Positions 11,560-17,871 of a stretch of 64,000 nt of DNA are shown one piece after another. Within the stretch, counting starts at the first letter, position 1; each line of letters opens with the position of its first letter. The notes beneath the pieces are model-generated. The model ran no database searches. It saw only the letters and a list, made by a program, of their open reading frames with translations, and was not told the DNA's origin. The translations under genes were made by a program, and so were the position numbers. Source of the DNA: Pseudomonadota bacterium (GTDB lineage: Bacteria > Myxococcota_A > UBA796 > GCA-2862545); NCBI GenBank assembly GCA_947505245.1, contig CANNIZ010000016.1, positions 1 to 64,000 of the forward strand, read 5' to 3'.

Positions 11560-12498
11560 ATGACGGTCACGCTGCAGGCCATCGAACAGGCCGCGATCTA
11601 CCTGCGCGACCACGTCGCGAAGACACCCGTCGAGGCTTCGGCCGTCGGTGTGCTCAAGCTCGAGAACCGCCAGGTCACAGGCTCCTTCAAGGTGCGCGGC
11701 GCGCTGTGGAAGCTCGCCCGCACCGCGCCGGGAACCGCGGTGGCCGCCGCTTCCGCGGGCAACCACGGCCTCGGCCTCGCCTACGCCGCCCGCCTGCGCG
11801 GCGCAGCGGCAACGATCTACGTCCCGTCCACGGTCGACGCCGCAAAGGCGCGCGGCATCCTCGCGCTCGGTGCGACGCTCGTTCGTTCTCCGCACGCCGG
11901 CTACGACGACACCGCCGCTTGGGGCGCCGAGCGCGCAGCGAACGACGGCCTGTCGTGGGTTTCCGCGTACGAAGATCCCGACATCATCGCAGGCAACGGC
12001 GGCTCGCTCGCCCTCGAGATCCTCGATCAGGTGCCGGACGTCGACACCATCGTCGTCCCCACGGGCGGCGGCGGCATGCTCGCCGGGGTCGTCACCGCTG
12101 TCCTCGCGCGGCGGCCCGCGGTGCGAGTCGTCGCAGTCCAACACGAGGGGTGCCCGGCCCTCGCGTGGTCGCTCGCGCGCGGCCAGGTCGTGACGCATAC
12201 GGAGCCGTTCGACACCGCGGCGGGCGGTTTGGAAGGCGGCTTCGGCGCGCTGAACTTCGAGATCGTCCGCGGCCACGTCGACACGGCCACCGTCAGCGAG
12301 GCCGAGCTCTTCGAAGCGATGCGGTTCTTGTGGGACGAACACCGGGAGGTCGCCGAGCCCAGCGGCGCCGCAGCGATCGCCGCCGTTCGTGCAGGCCGCG
12401 TCGACGCGGGCCCGCGAACCGTCGTCGTCGTCACGGGCCGGAACGTGGCTCGAGCGACGCTGGTTCGGGCGCTGCAAGAAGGGCGAGACGCGACCTGA
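11560..12498 (+). CDS. PLP-dependent threonine dehydratase/serine racemase-like enzyme
   Basis: 312 residues, fold-type II PLP enzyme without the C-terminal ACT regulatory domain of biosynthetic IlvA. The Schiff-base lysine is Lys44 in GSFKVRGA, the SAGNHGLGLA loop is the substrate/carboxylate loop, and TGGGGMLAG is the glycine-rich phosphate-binding loop. Such proteins deaminate Thr/Ser to 2-oxoacids or racemise Ser, and sequence alone does not separate these. The ATG at 11560 follows GAGGG at suitable spacing; a start at 11518 was rejected as lacking a Shine-Dalgarno. It is divergent from the hydrolase gene (34-nt gap). Its 3' end overlaps the convergent SRPBCC-like gene by 68 nt, which is unusual for this window. 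Confidence 0.85.
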   Translation: MTVTLQAIEQAAIYLRDHVAKTPVEASAVGVLKLENRQVTGSFKVRGALWKLARTAPGTAVAAASAGNHGLGLAYAARLRGAAATIYVPSTVDAAKARGILALGATLVRSPHAGYDDTAAWGAERAANDGLSWVSAYEDPDIIAGNGGSLALEILDQVPDVDTIVVPTGGGGMLAGVVTAVLARRPAVRVVAVQHEGCPALAWSLARGQVVTHTEPFDTAAGGLEGGFGALNFEIVRGHVDTATVSEAELFEAMRFLWDEHREVAEPSGAAAIAAVRAGRVDAGPRTVVVVTGRNVARATLVRALQEGRDAT

Positions 12499-12823
12499 GC
12501 CAGCGCTCGAGATCGTGCCGGAGCAACGCGGGGATCGCCGTCGGAAACACGAGCTCCACGTCGGCCGAGACGACCGCGCCGACCGTCACGACCACCGTGC
12601 ACGCCGACAACTCACCCTCGACCATCGCGACCTCGGCGCCATCCGCGTGCGGCACCACCTGAAGCCCGACGCGCAGCGGCCGCGGCCCCGCGAGATCGAG
12701 ATCGACACGGCCCGCGTGCCCCGAACGAGCCCCTGGCCACCACGTGGACCACCGCTCGGGCGCGAGGCGCGCGCGAATGATCTCGGTCGAGGCCTGTGCG
12801 GGTACGTCCAGCCGGAAACGCAC
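12431..12823 (-). CDS. Small SRPBCC/START-like domain protein (DUF)
   Basis: 130 residues from a GTG start at 12823, whose first base is the last base of the upstream RecG-like stop (TAGTG). No other start fits this coupling; longer versions of the frame begin inside the RecG-like coding region. The alternating strand pattern, an early FRLDVPAQAS segment, a WSTWWPG loop and a long C-terminal helix (LLRHDLERWLRSRLALL) resemble the SRPBCC helix-grip fold used for binding hydrophobic ligands. This is fold-level resemblance, not a family match. It is the last gene of the pyrB-greA-RecG-like operon. Its last 68 nt overlap the convergent dehydratase gene. Confidence 0.6.
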   Translation of the reverse strand: MRFRLDVPAQASTEIIRARLAPERWSTWWPGARSGHAGRVDLDLAGPRPLRVGLQVVPHADGAEVAMVEGELSACTVVVTVGAVVSADVELVFPTAIPALLRHDLERWLRSRLALLAAPEPASLEPRSGP

Positions 12824-15447
12824 TACTTGCGCTTCCGCCGACGACGCCGGCGTTTCCCGGAGGCGCCACCTGGGCCCCCCGCATCGGGCAGCGGGCACGG
12901 CGTGGGAAGCAGCTCGTCCCACCGGTCCCGCAGGGTCTTGCCGAGGTCGTTGTGCAGGCCGCGGCGCAGCGACGGATCGTCCGTCAACAGCTCGTGCGCC
13001 TCTTCGCGCGCCAGCACGAGCAGCTCGCGATCGGCGGCTGGATCGAGCCAACGCAGGCGCGACCCGCCGTGCACGTCGCGCGCGATCAGCGGCGCGAGGC
13101 CGCGCGTCTTCGCATCCCACTCGGCGACGGCCCAGGCGTCGCCCGGCTCGGTGATGCGCTTGATGCGCTCGAGGCCCGCGTGATCGGGCTCACGGCCGGT
13201 GATCAACACTAGGCGGGCTTCGCCTCCGATGCCGTCGGAGACATGGCCCTGCAAGCGCAGCAACCTGTGCAACGGCATCCGGTCGGCCTGCTCGACGACG
13301 AGCACCGTGGCGGCCGCGACCGGCGGCCCGTCTTCTACGGGCGCGGTGGCGACGAGCACGTCCGCGCGCCGATGGCGGAACTCCTCGTACACGCGCTGCC
13401 GGTCTTCGCGCGGCTGCTGGCCGTGGAACAACGACACGCGCAGGCCAGGGAACATCTTGGACGCGAGCACGTCGACCACCTGCTTGGCCTCGCGGAGGTC
13501 GAGCACGTCGACCTGGCGGCCTTCGTCCGACGCGGCCATCGGGAACAACACGTACGCCTGCCGCCCGGATGCGACGGCCGCCACGGCGACCTTGTACGCT
13601 TCTTCGCGGTGGTCTTCCCCGAACACCGAGACCACCGGCGCCGGGCGAACGCTCTGCAGCACCGAGAGATCGCAGTCTCCGTAGGCCGACAACATGACGG
13701 CGGCGGGGATCGGCGTGGTGCCGACGACGAGCAGGTCCGGGCGCGGCGCGCGCATCTGCTGGAGTTTGGCGGGCGCGCGGCCCCAGGGCTCGCGCTCTTC
13801 CGCGATCACGAGCCCGAGGCGGCGGTATTCGACGTCATGGTCGAGCATGTCCGCGGTGCCGAACAACACGTGGATGTCGCCGCGGCGTAGCGCCTCGCGT
13901 TGCGCCTTGGTGGGCTCGCCATCGACGAATTTTGCGACGATGCCGATCTCTCGCAGCAACGGCTCGGCGAACGCGTACCGCAGCTCGGCGCTCATCGCGT
14001 CGGGCGCGGTGATGACGACCTGCGCCTTCGTCTCGGCGACCAGCGCAGCCGCGTGCAGGGCCACCTGGAACTTCCCTGTCCCACCCGGTCCGGTGAGGAC
14101 GCGTTGCATGGGGATCGTGCGCCGCAGATCGCGCTTGATGTCTTCGAGCGCGCTCGCCCGCGTGTCATCGAGGGGGTCTTCGCTCTGCTGGGAAAGGCGC
14201 GCCGACGCGAGGTGCGTGAGCACGTGCGCGATGCCACGCTCGCGGGACGCCTGGAAGCGCGGCGTCTCGAGGGCGAGCTGGAGCAGCAACGCCTCATCGA
14301 ACGCGAGGCGTCGGCGGGCGTCGGGGCGCGCGGTGCCGAGGCGATGCACGTTCAAGATCGCGTCCGACAGCTTGGGAAGCACGAGCCGCGCCCGCGCTGC
14401 AACGTCCAACGTGTCGCGCACCTGCTCGGCCATCGGCAGGAACCGCCACAGGAGCACGCGGATCACCGCGTCATCAATGCCTTCAACGCCGTAGCGGTTG
14501 AGCCGCACGACGTTGCCATCCGAGTGGACGGGCTCGGCGTCGTACAACACGGAGCGATCGTCCACGGTGCGCACGTCGCCCACCAACACGACTCGCGACT
14601 CGGGCGCCATCGCCTCCACGAACCACATCGCCACCGGGCGCGAGAACCGGACCTCGAGCGCGCCGGCCCCGAACAGCTCGAACGACGTCGACGCGGGCGC
14701 TCCCGGCACCAGGCGCGTGACGCGACGGCGCACGCGACCACCGACGGCCGCGCGGCCCTCTGGCAGCGTGCGACCTGCGCCGTGGATCGGACGCACGACG
14801 ATCTCGTCGACGGGAGGCAGCAGCAGCAGGTCGGCGATCGTCTCGATCCCCTCCTCTGCGAGCGCCAGCGCGAGCTCTGGATCGACGACGATGCCACCGG
14901 GAAGTGCAGGTTCCCCGAGGCCGAGCCCCGTGTGGGCCGGATCCCCGAGGCGAAACCCCTTCTCTTCGTCTTCCTCGACGATCTCGAGGACGTCGTCGTC
15001 AAGGACGCCTGCGACGATCGTCTCCTCGACGAGCACGTCGCGTTCCAACGCTTCGAACGCAGGCAGCTCGCCCTGGGGCGGCGAGAGCTTCCCTTCGAGC
15101 GGAAGTCCGAGCCAGGCATCGAGCCGGCCGATCGTCTGCCACATCGCCCGCGCCCGCGCGGGTCGGTCCTCGGCTTCGTCAAAGCCCGAGAGGGAGTTAC
15201 CGATTTCGACCACCGCCTCGCGCACCGGCGCGGGAAGATCGAGCTTGAGGGCTGGGTTGAACCAGTGCCCACCGTTGGCCCCGAGGTAGCGGATCTCGGT
15301 CGCGCGCACGTCGACGTCGCTCGAGATCCACGCCAATACTCGTCGCAGCGGTCGAAGCGCGCGATCGAGCTCGTCGATCGGCATCGCAGGCTCGTACGGT
15401 ACGAGGTCCACGGGGGTCCGTACGGTCATCGACGCATCGTTCGTCAT
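12823..15447 (-). CDS. Degenerate RecG-like helicase paralogue, probably ATPase-dead
   Basis: 874 residues. The order matches RecG: an N-terminal helical region, a wedge/OB segment (VRRRVTRLVPG...RVVLVGDV), the RRLAFDEALLLQL linker, then two RecA-like lobes. The lobes keep RecG-specific landmarks such as FGTADMLDHDVEYRRLGLVI, TTPIPAAVMLSAYGD, SLFHGQQPREDRQ and VLVATAPVEDGPPVAAATVLVVE. The catalytic motifs are broken: Walker A is GPGGTGKF (452-460) instead of GDVGSGKT, motif II is AEER (549-552) instead of DEQH, motif III is GTTPIP instead of TATPIP, and motif VI is LQGHVSDG (~732-739) instead of LRGRVGRG. It should bind branched DNA but not translocate. The C-terminus is a Gly/Arg/Lys tail. 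The start at 15447 overlaps the greA stop (ATGA). A true recG is expected elsewhere. Confidence 0.85.
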   Translation of the reverse strand: MTNDASMTVRTPVDLVPYEPAMPIDELDRALRPLRRVLAWISSDVDVRATEIRYLGANGGHWFNPALKLDLPAPVREAVVEIGNSLSGFDEAEDRPARARAMWQTIGRLDAWLGLPLEGKLSPPQGELPAFEALERDVLVEETIVAGVLDDDVLEIVEEDEEKGFRLGDPAHTGLGLGEPALPGGIVVDPELALALAEEGIETIADLLLLPPVDEIVVRPIHGAGRTLPEGRAAVGGRVRRRVTRLVPGAPASTSFELFGAGALEVRFSRPVAMWFVEAMAPESRVVLVGDVRTVDDRSVLYDAEPVHSDGNVVRLNRYGVEGIDDAVIRVLLWRFLPMAEQVRDTLDVAARARLVLPKLSDAILNVHRLGTARPDARRRLAFDEALLLQLALETPRFQASRERGIAHVLTHLASARLSQQSEDPLDDTRASALEDIKRDLRRTIPMQRVLTGPGGTGKFQVALHAAALVAETKAQVVITAPDAMSAELRYAFAEPLLREIGIVAKFVDGEPTKAQREALRRGDIHVLFGTADMLDHDVEYRRLGLVIAEEREPWGRAPAKLQQMRAPRPDLLVVGTTPIPAAVMLSAYGDCDLSVLQSVRPAPVVSVFGEDHREEAYKVAVAAVASGRQAYVLFPMAASDEGRQVDVLDLREAKQVVDVLASKMFPGLRVSLFHGQQPREDRQRVYEEFRHRRADVLVATAPVEDGPPVAAATVLVVEQADRMPLHRLLRLQGHVSDGIGGEARLVLITGREPDHAGLERIKRITEPGDAWAVAEWDAKTRGLAPLIARDVHGGSRLRWLDPAADRELLVLAREEAHELLTDDPSLRRGLHNDLGKTLRDRWDELLPTPCPLPDAGGPGGASGKRRRRRRKRK

Positions 15448-15920
15448 ACGTAGAGGACCTCGATGATTTCCCATTTCTGGGTGCCGCCTGGCGCGGGGAT
15501 CGTGATCTCTTCGCCCTCGGACCGGCCGATCAGGGCCTTTGCAACAGGCGTCTGGTAGCTCAGCAGGCCGTTCGCGATGTCCGCCTCCGTCTCACCGACG
15601 ATGCGCCACGTCCGCTGCGTACCTTCCTTGTTTTCGAGCTTCACGGTGACCCCGAACACCACGCGCCCGTCTTTCTTCGGGAGCTTGGTGACGTCGATGA
15701 TCTCGGCTGAGCTCACCCGACCTTCGAGATCGGAGATCTTCGCAGCGATCATCGACTGCGCCTCCTTCGCGGAGCTGTATTCAGCGTTCTCGCTAAGGTC
15801 CCCGTGCGCACGCGCCTCTTCGATGGCGCGCACGTTCTGTGGGCGAAGCACCTCTTTGTGGTGTTTCAGGTCGCGCAGCAGGGCTTCGTAGCCTGCCGGC
15901 GTGATGGGGTTCCGGGTCAT
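15444..15920 (-). CDS. greA: Transcription elongation factor GreA
   Basis: 158 residues, the standard GreA length. The N-terminal coiled-coil tip carries HGDLSENAEYSSAKE, whose acidic residues enter the RNA polymerase secondary channel and stimulate transcript cleavage. The C-terminal FKBP-like domain ends in the usual SPVAKALIGRxxGE-like segment (here TPVAKALIGRSEGEE) and a WEIIEV strand. It releases backtracked RNA polymerase. The ATG at 15920 has GGAGA upstream. The gene lies 35 nt after the dihydroorotase-like stop and overlaps the RecG-like start by 4 nt, so it probably belongs to the pyrB operon transcript and is translationally coupled to the RecG-like gene. Confidence 0.95.
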   Translation of the reverse strand: MTRNPITPAGYEALLRDLKHHKEVLRPQNVRAIEEARAHGDLSENAEYSSAKEAQSMIAAKISDLEGRVSSAEIIDVTKLPKKDGRVVFGVTVKLENKEGTQRTWRIVGETEADIANGLLSYQTPVAKALIGRSEGEEITIPAPGGTQKWEIIEVLYV

Positions 15921-15955: not shown

Positions 15956-16966
15956 TCAGAGGACGCGGCCGCGAAGCCTCGCGCCGAGGAGCGGAGTGTT
16001 GTACGGAGGCCCCACCAGGGTGTCCGGCCCCACGACCCAGTCGACGTCTGGCTCGACGTCGACCTCATCGACGACCGACAGGCCGAGGATCCGCGCCGGG
16101 CCCGCGGACAGCACCTTTGAGGTGAGGGTCGCGTCGCCCAGCGCGCCGAGCACCAGCGCGTAGGCCGTCTCGAGGCCCCGGGCGCCGGGCTCCGCGATCT
16201 CGATCTCACGGTCCTGCAGGTGCAGCGGAATTTCCTTGTGATCCGTCGCGACGGCGTCGATCGTGCCGTCCCGCAGGGCGTCGACCAGCGCGCGCCGATC
16301 CGCGTCGTCACCGAGTGGCGGAACGAAACGGCAAACACCTGCGTAGGCGGTCGCGTCGATGAGCTCGTCCGAGAGCACGAGGTGGTGGGCGGTGGTGCTC
16401 GCGGTGATCGGCAACCCCTCGGCCCGGGCGCGGCGAAGCGCTTCGACCCCGCGCGCCGACCACAGGTGCGTCAGGTGGACGGCGGTTCCGGTGCGACGGA
16501 CGAGCGCGGCGACCGTCGCGATACCGATCTCTTCGGCCTCGGGAGGCACGGCAGGCAGGCCGAGCCACGACGCGCGCGGTCCTTCGCGCACGACGCCGCC
16601 GGCTTCGAGGTCCGGGTCAGCCGCGCGGAGCATCACGGGGACCCCAGTTCGACCTGCATATTCGAGCACATGCCGCAACACGCGCGCGTTCTTCAGCGGC
16701 ACGCCGCCGTTCGACAGCACCGCCGCGCCGGCCTTCACCAACAGCCCGACGTCGGCGATCTCTTCGCCGCGCAGGCCCTTCGTGAGCGCCCCGGCGACGA
16801 GCACGTTTACACGAGGGTCGCCACGCGAAGCGAGCCGCGCCCGCACATCGGATGGCTGCTCGAGCGGACCGACGACAACTGCGCGAAACCCTCCGCGCAG
16901 CGCCGCCTCGACCGTCGCATCGCGTCCGTACAAATCGACGAGCGCAGGCATCGTGAAACGGGACAT
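15956..16966 (-). CDS. Degenerate dihydroorotase (PyrC'-like ATCase partner)
   Basis: 336 residues, shorter than a normal ~420-residue class I dihydroorotase. The fold is clear: LTKGLRGEEIADVGLLVKAG, HLTHLWSARGVE, TASTTAHHLVLSDE and VATDHKEIP are conserved landmarks. The zinc site is mostly lost. The N-terminal DxHxH motif is VDLYGRD, the SDDG motif is SNGG, and the VHAE motif is LRAA; the His in HLTH and the Asp in TDH remain. Catalysis is therefore unlikely. In Pseudomonas an inactive dihydroorotase (PyrC') encoded overlapping pyrB is needed to assemble aspartate transcarbamoylase, and the same arrangement is seen here (TGATG overlap with pyrB). I infer the same structural role. An active dihydroorotase must be encoded elsewhere. 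Confidence 0.85.
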   Translation of the reverse strand: MSRFTMPALVDLYGRDATVEAALRGGFRAVVVGPLEQPSDVRARLASRGDPRVNVLVAGALTKGLRGEEIADVGLLVKAGAAVLSNGGVPLKNARVLRHVLEYAGRTGVPVMLRAADPDLEAGGVVREGPRASWLGLPAVPPEAEEIGIATVAALVRRTGTAVHLTHLWSARGVEALRRARAEGLPITASTTAHHLVLSDELIDATAYAGVCRFVPPLGDDADRRALVDALRDGTIDAVATDHKEIPLHLQDREIEIAEPGARGLETAYALVLGALGDATLTSKVLSAGPARILGLSVVDEVDVEPDVDWVVGPDTLVGPPYNTPLLGARLRGRVL

Positions 16967-17871
16967 CAGGCGACCCCCATCACGCGCGCGAGAACGGCCA
17001 TTCGCACCGCGACGCCGTTTGCCTTTTGCTGGAAGATCAGGCTGTCCGGCCCGTCTGCTACGTCCGACGCGATCTCGAGACCGCGGTTCATCGGCCCCGG
17101 GTGCATCACGACCTGGCCGGGGCGCAGCTTCTTCAAGCCCCACAGGGACGCATATTCGGCGTCCGACGGCAACATCCCGGGCGCCATTCGCTCCCGTTGG
17201 ATGCGCAGCATCATCACGGCGTCGGCCTCGCGAACGACCTCATCGAGGGTGTGACGGACCTCGATCCGCCCGCCGACCGGGTCGAGCGCGGTCATCGAGT
17301 CGGGGCACAGCGGCCCGGGACCGGCCAACAGCACGCGCGCGCCGAGCTTCGGAAGCAAGAAGCAGTTGGACCGGGTGACGCGCGAATGGCGGAGATCCCC
17401 GACGATAGCGACCGTCAACCCGTCGATCCGGCCGAACCGGTCGAGCAGCGTGAGCGCGTCGAGCAGCGCCTGGGTGGGGTGCTCGTTGATGCCGTCGCCG
17501 GCGTTGATCACCGGCACGTCCACGCGCCTTGCGAGCTGGTGAGGTGAGCCGACGTACTTGTGCCGCAGCACGAACGCGTGCGCCCCGTGCGCGCGCAGCG
17601 TCTTCGCCGTGTCCCACAACGTCTCGCCCTTTACGGTCGAGCTCCCCTCCGCGCTCATTGAAAGCACGTCCGCGCCGAGGTTCTTCGCCGCCATCTCGAA
17701 CGAGAACCGCGTACGCGTCGACGGTTCGAGGAACAACAGCCCGACGCTGCGCCCTTTGAGCAGGGACATGCGGCCCTCGTCGCGAACCCTTGCGCGCAGC
17801 GTCACCGCCAACGCGAGCAGGTCGCGCAGCTCGTCCGCGCTCACGTCCCGCAGCCCGACGAGGTGGTTCAT
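16966..17871 (-). CDS. pyrB: Aspartate carbamoyltransferase catalytic subunit
   Basis: 301 residues, normal for the catalytic chain. It condenses carbamoyl phosphate with aspartate to carbamoyl-aspartate in pyrimidine synthesis. Signatures are the carbamoyl-phosphate loop FLEPSTRTRFSFE, GDGINEHPTQALLD, GDLRHSRVTRSN and MHPGPMNRGLEI near the C-terminus. The last base of its stop is the first base of the dihydroorotase-like start, so the two products are made together and should form one complex. It starts at ATG 17871 with TAGGA upstream, 6 nt after the TatT-like stop. No pyrI regulatory chain is visible. Confidence 0.96.
   Translation of the reverse strand: MNHLVGLRDVSADELRDLLALAVTLRARVRDEGRMSLLKGRSVGLLFLEPSTRTRFSFEMAAKNLGADVLSMSAEGSSTVKGETLWDTAKTLRAHGAHAFVLRHKYVGSPHQLARRVDVPVINAGDGINEHPTQALLDALTLLDRFGRIDGLTVAIVGDLRHSRVTRSNCFLLPKLGARVLLAGPGPLCPDSMTALDPVGGRIEVRHTLDEVVREADAVMMLRIQRERMAPGMLPSDAEYASLWGLKKLRPGQVVMHPGPMNRGLEIASDVADGPDSLIFQQKANGVAVRMAVLARVMGVA

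Follow-up and report, generated by a model that had tools for sequence, protein, structure and literature searches.

The sole RecG of a bacterial order is very likely an ATPase-dead orthologue maintained by selection

Our results suggest that one bacterial lineage, an order of uncultured, Myxococcota-like bacteria, has inactivated the motor of its only RecG and has kept the protein. The gene, pseudo-recG (P0001), lies at positions 12823–15447 on the reverse strand of the window, the stretch of 64,000 nucleotides analyzed here, and encodes 874 amino acids. We are highly confident that its product is a RecG orthologue which has lost its ATPase and is maintained by selection. The complete reading, in which the recG orthologue of the lineage has turned into a pseudohelicase and which includes the role we propose for it, we put at a probability of roughly 0.6. 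The protein probably has a new job that needs no motor, because selection on it is as strict as on the working enzyme and an arginine-rich tail has been added to it.

The reading frame of pseudo-recG is free of stop codons, and its start overlaps the stop codon of greA through ATGA. A longer version, starting at an in-frame upstream ATG at 15474, is possible. RecG models are the best match along the length of the protein, as expected for a member of the RecG family by descent: the NCBIfam model NF008168 (RecG) scores 331 bits over residues 188–845 (Mfd 118 bits), a score that lies under the curated cut-off of 718 bits, as it does under every RecG cut-off. Among solved structures, RecG of T. 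maritima (1gm5) and of E. coli (9wm0) come closest, followed by Mfd. Downstream of pseudo-recG is a short ORF (12440–12826, reverse strand). It matches no model of Pfam or NCBIfam over the stretches that were scanned, and it has weak relatives behind recG at the loci L051 and L058 (36 bits).

AlphaFold predicts a complete RecG fold for the window protein (pLDDT 89.6, pTM 0.81). An all-helical N-terminal domain (residues 24–113; 15109–15378, reverse strand) is followed by a disordered linker (residues 119–147). The wedge, an OB-fold domain at residues ~219–313 (14509–14793, reverse strand), a linker, two RecA-like domains and the TRG region stand in the same order as in RecG (TIGR00643; 1gm5, 9wm0). 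Foldseek likewise places RecG 1gm5 first (E 1e-33) and Mfd second. The TM-scores are low (0.35–0.40) and the rmsd is high, so the match to 1gm5 rests on local structure, and the placing of the domains differs or is uncertain. For a member from another family of the order (f2), AlphaFold also gives a RecG fold for the folded part, with core blocks mostly at pLDDT 85–97. The intact frame, the ATGA overlap and the RecG layout described in an earlier note on this DNA are all borne out. Mfd has the RecG-type motor in common with the window protein. However, the window's genome has its own intact Mfd, and pseudo-RecG has the RecG wedge, with no RNAP-binding or UvrB-like modules detected in it.

What sets the protein apart from RecG is that all of its ATPase motifs are degenerate, that the wedge phenylalanine is lost, that motif Ia carries an aspartate, and that a poly-arginine tail is present. 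In the alignment with RecG of T. maritima and of E. coli, Walker A (14068–14091; this and the following motifs on the reverse strand) reads GPGGTGKF instead of GDVGSGKT, with the lysine retained and the threonine replaced by phenylalanine. In motif Ia (ITAPDA, 13996–14013) the canonical APT has become APD, and PTS of 1gm5 corresponds to PDA. Motif II (13780–13806) is IAEEREPWG, where RecGs have I[IV]DEQHRFG (IIDEQHRFG in 1gm5); the Walker-B aspartate is now glutamate, the second glutamate is retained, and the Q/H is gone. Motif III (13699–13722) is GTTPIPAA, with TATPIPRS in canonical RecG and SATPIPRS in 1gm5. In a segment between motifs III and VI, STTVIEVGIDVP of 1gm5 is replaced by ATAPVEDGPPVA. 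Motif V (13315–13353) is VATAPVEDGPPVA where the canonical form is VTTTVIEVGVDVP, and its core reads VEDGPPV in place of IEVGIDV. Motif VI (13231–13269), finally, is HRLLRLQGHVSDG (canonical LHQLRGRVGRG); QLRGRVGRG of 1gm5 has become RLQGHVSDG, and both arginine-finger positions are gone. The earlier note had called all ATPase motifs broken. This is right for the catalytic motifs, and its reading of motif II as AEER was off by one residue (the motif is EERE). Motif V, motif Ia and the wedge phenylalanine, which are lost as well, have to be added to its list.

How general this state is can be read from six catalytic positions (K402, T403, D497, E498, R680 and R683, T. maritima numbering). All 43 canonical RecGs in the alignment have KTDERR there. 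None of the 55 full dead sequences has the complete sextet, and most retain one to three residues of the six. The residues now found at these positions in families f2–f6 of the order form a conserved pattern of their own (K G E E/Q H x). The window's family, f1, has drifted further, as have many of its residues that are conserved in f2–f6.

It is conceivable that such proteins are highly divergent, still active ATPases or helicases with altered motifs, for example with glutamate for the Walker-B aspartate. The change from D to E is conservative, f2–f6 members keep the P-loop lysine in 34 of 38 cases and a Q-motif-like glutamine in 97%, and one sequence (L066) retains four of the six catalytic residues. 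Nevertheless, the arginines of motif VI, the Walker-A Thr/Ser, the Gly-x-Asp of motif V and the arginine of motif III are lost jointly in most members, and in f1 the P-loop lysine is gone in about half of the sequences and the Walker-B position is variable. An active enzyme with altered motifs is therefore quite improbable. ATP hydrolysis by pseudo-RecG is very unlikely, judging from these residues, and ATP hydrolysis is needed for translocation.

Loss extends to the parts of RecG that handle the fork. The wedge aromatic at T. maritima F204, which we take from the known structure 1gm5 to be the phenylalanine that stacks at the fork, is F in 98% of canonical RecGs and lost in the dead clade; W203/F204 correspond to F268/S269 in the window protein. 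The canonical YEDR loop is also lost in the dead clade. In motif Ia, the position of T426 (T. maritima numbering) is D in 38/38 f2–f6 sequences and in 75% of f1. The threonine of motif Ia is a DNA-backbone contact in SF2 helicases. Without the stacking phenylalanine of the wedge, fork splitting of the ordinary kind is unlikely. Ordinary fork binding may be gone as well, since both the wedge phenylalanine and the YEDR loop are lost and the aspartate in motif Ia is conserved. The binding of forks or R-loops suggested in the earlier note appears weakened by the loss of F204 together with T426D.

The earlier note had taken the gene for a paralogue next to a canonical recG, and had expected its idea to fall if this were the only recG of the genome. 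The genome of the window (5.5 Mb, 94.6% complete) yielded no second RecG in a protein search or with the TIGR00643 model; the matches were Mfd, pseudo-recG, PriA and weak SF2 proteins. Nor was a canonical recG found in any of the 63 genomes of the order, where, at the threshold used, the RecG-type matches were pseudo-recG and Mfd. The paralogue is thus refuted and the selected dead RecG stands. The dead motifs that the earlier note wanted to see in orthologues are shared throughout: we found 58 orthologues in 58 genomes, covering all six families (f1–f6) of the order, and none retains the full catalytic set. A dead sole RecG throughout an order is more surprising than a dead paralogue. These genomes are mostly fragmented assemblies of varying completeness, and one could argue that sequencing, assembly or binning errors, or an unusual genetic code, mimic broken motifs. 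Yet 58 separate genomes agree, the motifs of PriA and Mfd are intact in the same genome, and GreA and PyrB are intact in the same operon. We give such an artefact practically no credence.

The ancestral state of the locus can be seen in the sister families f8 and f9 of the same class, where a fully intact RecG follows greA in the order pyrB-pyrC-greA-recG; pseudo-recG occupies the same operon position, and so belongs to the RecG family by descent at an orthologous locus. In a tree built with the motif columns removed, f1–f6 group together as one clade (SH-aLRT 100), whose stem is long (1.02 changes per site), and an eroded protein of family f7 is its sister (support 88). The recG locus is ancestral, and the ATPase residues were lost before the order diversified. 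Because f1–f6 are all dead and f8/f9 are intact at the same locus, it was one lineage (plus f7) that inactivated its sole RecG. Pseudo-recG is thus an in-place orthologue that underwent one inactivation, or two if the f7 case is independent. It is RecG by descent and, judging from its catalytic residues, would fail RecG by the defining activity.

The f7 protein is a second dead RecG and is very eroded (genome G058, locus L110, 7467–12143, reverse strand). It has a long, glutamate-rich, disordered N-terminal extension and, ahead of the wedge, a patch reading RRRRRKK; it lacks a C-terminal arginine tail. With regard to the taxonomic position of the group, 22 MYXO-CTERM sorting signals were counted, compared with none in 14 control genomes, which points to Myxococcota.

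The remaining genes of the operon show a second loss of this type. On the reverse strand, greA (15444–15920) has its acidic tip GDLSENAEY intact, with the tip kept in nearly all members, and pyrB (16966–17871), the aspartate carbamoyltransferase gene, has an intact STRTR. The pyrC-like gene between them (15956–17143) encodes a pseudo-dihydroorotase that has lost the metal-binding HxH, with VDLYGR for VDLHVHLREPG. In f8/f9, pyrC is intact (VDLHVHLREPG, ATDHAPH); the f1–f6 copies read (L051–L130) lack the HxH-R site for metal and substrate. The dN/dS of the dead pyrC is 0.11–0.19. Hence, recG and the adjoining pyrC both seem to have turned pseudoenzyme in one clade. The coupling of pseudo-RecG to GreA proposed in the earlier note, as a joint function, we reject as unsupported: the linkage predates the inactivation and is equally present with the active RecG of f8/f9, and so provides no evidence of a joint function.

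Pseudo-RecG is under purifying selection, which is strongest in the dead motor domains. For close pairs, dN/dS by the method of Nei and Gojobori is 0.10–0.29 for the whole dead recG and 0.09–0.33 for active RecG; among the operon neighbors it is 0.06–0.19 for greA and 0.03–0.09 for pyrB. Of all domains of the protein, the dead helicase domains have the lowest values (0.01–0.21, compared with 0.03–0.18 for the helicase domains of active RecG). Degenerate motifs under purifying selection are one mark of a pseudohelicase, and pseudo-RecG shows it. A RecG under purifying selection has also been described in Wolbachia, where ruvA is being neutralized (PMC4224334).

These values bear directly on whether the gene is merely a redundant, functionless remnant in slow decay, whose frame stays open owing to its place in the operon and a high G+C content. 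In favor of slow decay, RecG has disappeared from many families of the phylum, and f1 members have drifted far, some of them to the point of having no P-loop at all. Against it, dN/dS equals the value for active RecG and reaches its minimum in the dead motor, the frames are intact in 58 genomes although protein identity falls to ~30%, the fold is predicted with high confidence, and the arginine tail is conserved while using all the arginine codons. We therefore reject decay, which we consider very improbable, even slightly more so than an active enzyme with altered motifs; selection rather than decay, the position of the earlier note, agrees with the Ka/Ks comparison.

The dead clade has also gained features. 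Sites conserved in f1 as well as f2–f6 and not in canonical RecG include R347, H355, D371, K/R381, R382 and D518, and further R564, Y568, D592, R628, R639 and R673 (T. maritima numbering). The motif R614-x-x-A617-Y618 (13594–13608, reverse strand) varies little or not at all within the dead clade. It sits on the helix of helicase domain 2 that in E. coli RecG bears the arginine residues docking the SSB tail (PMC10164576). These particular residues of E. coli are lacking even from the canonical RecGs of the phylum, which is why docking to SSB stays a lead. The SSB of the window's genome ends in a DEDIPF tip.

The most conspicuous gain is the C-terminal tail. In the window protein it reads RRRRRRKRK (12826–12852, reverse strand; codons CGC CGG CGT CGT CGG CGG AAG CGC AAG), and every full-length dead member ends in a basic tail of ~6–10 residues, mostly arginine, behind a disordered linker. 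A run of at least five R/K residues stands at the C-terminus of 52 of the 58 dead orthologues. Of the remaining six, five are truncated by the end of their contig; in the other one, L024, the basic tail is interrupted. The tail is absent from canonical RecG and from the GreA, PyrB and PyrC orthologues. All six arginine codons are used in the tails, plus lysine codons, which argues for selection on the amino acids and not for a DNA repeat. We looked for a net shift toward positive charge in the folded domains and found none; the basic change is confined to the tail.

Taken together, the best reading is that pseudo-RecG would be an ATP-independent RecG pseudohelicase, by analogy with PriA of D. 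radiodurans. That protein is a pseudohelicase without ATPase activity that retains DNA binding and the interaction with DnaB (PMC4504706). Like pseudo-RecG, it is a fork-processing SF2 helicase whose motifs have degenerated in one lineage (PMC4504706). Unlike pseudo-RecG, it is a different protein, its activity was measured whereas ours is deduced, and the abstract makes no mention of a new arginine tail (PMC4504706). Our search of open-access papers turned up no description of a RecG pseudohelicase. A parallel is pDHO of P. aeruginosa, a catalytically dead dihydroorotase that supports ATCase (PMC7053772). The pyrC of the window looks to be of the same type, and pDHO is a dead operon neighbor kept for structure (PMC7053772), as pseudo-RecG may be; its fold is unrelated to that of RecG, which makes it a parallel and not a relative.

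We picture the mechanism as follows. Translocation and branch migration would have been lost, and the two dead RecA-like domains would form a rigid docking surface. Through its arginine tail, pseudo-RecG could bind nucleic acid, or the acidic tail of a protein, independently of ATP. The most likely setting would be forks, gaps or joint molecules, with pseudo-RecG tethered to SSB or restart proteins. It would act there as an occupancy or recruitment factor, and RuvAB, PriA and other helicases would do the motor work. PriA and RuvB are present alongside pseudo-RecG and, like Mfd, are intact. For a function somewhere in replication, recombination or transcription we see the odds as even. The more specific role as a tether at SSB or forks is doubtful. 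That the sole RecG of an order has become a new ATP-independent factor, with a rigid pseudo-motor, a new conserved docking surface, an arginine tail and a role distinct from branch migration, in the same lineage that holds the PyrC pseudoenzyme, is, in our view, as likely as not.

One could also propose full neofunctionalization outside DNA repair, in which the RecG fold serves as the scaffold of an unrelated complex. Candidate partners are RNA, the ribosome, RNA polymerase with GreA, or ATCase with the pseudo-dihydroorotase, and the tail would bind RNA or an acidic partner. New residues that are invariant across f1–f6, a universal arginine tail, the lost wedge phenylalanine, T426D and an adjoining pyrC turned pseudoenzyme in the same clade all fit this proposal. 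The ancestral operon order, however, gives no evidence of a partnership, and f2–f6 mostly retain GT in motif Ib and TT in motif V, both SF2 nucleic-acid contacts, as well as RG in the TRG motif. We regard neofunctionalization outside DNA repair as unlikely, though it is far more probable than decay.

The true cellular role of RecG is hard to separate from its motor. Pseudo-RecG offers a natural experiment across a whole order: the motor has been lost, and strong selection maintains the rest of the protein. This implies that RecG either has a valuable ATP-independent function or easily gains a new one. The new conserved residues and the arginine tail are concrete points to mutate.

A finding that speaks against our preferred reading, the pseudohelicase with an ATP-independent role, is that several families of the phylum manage after outright loss of RecG. 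RecG is absent in families f13, f15, f17, f21 and f23 and in part of f24, and many of these genomes are nearly complete. In 16 RecG-less genomes rechecked with the window protein no RecG remnant was found, Mfd being the sole match. PriA and RuvB are almost universal in the phylum, including the RecG-less families. Whereas recG is located at greA in the window's class, family f16 has it no more than a few kb from priA (G081:C11, G089:C2, G097:C44, G108:C57, G128:C190 and G132:C1).
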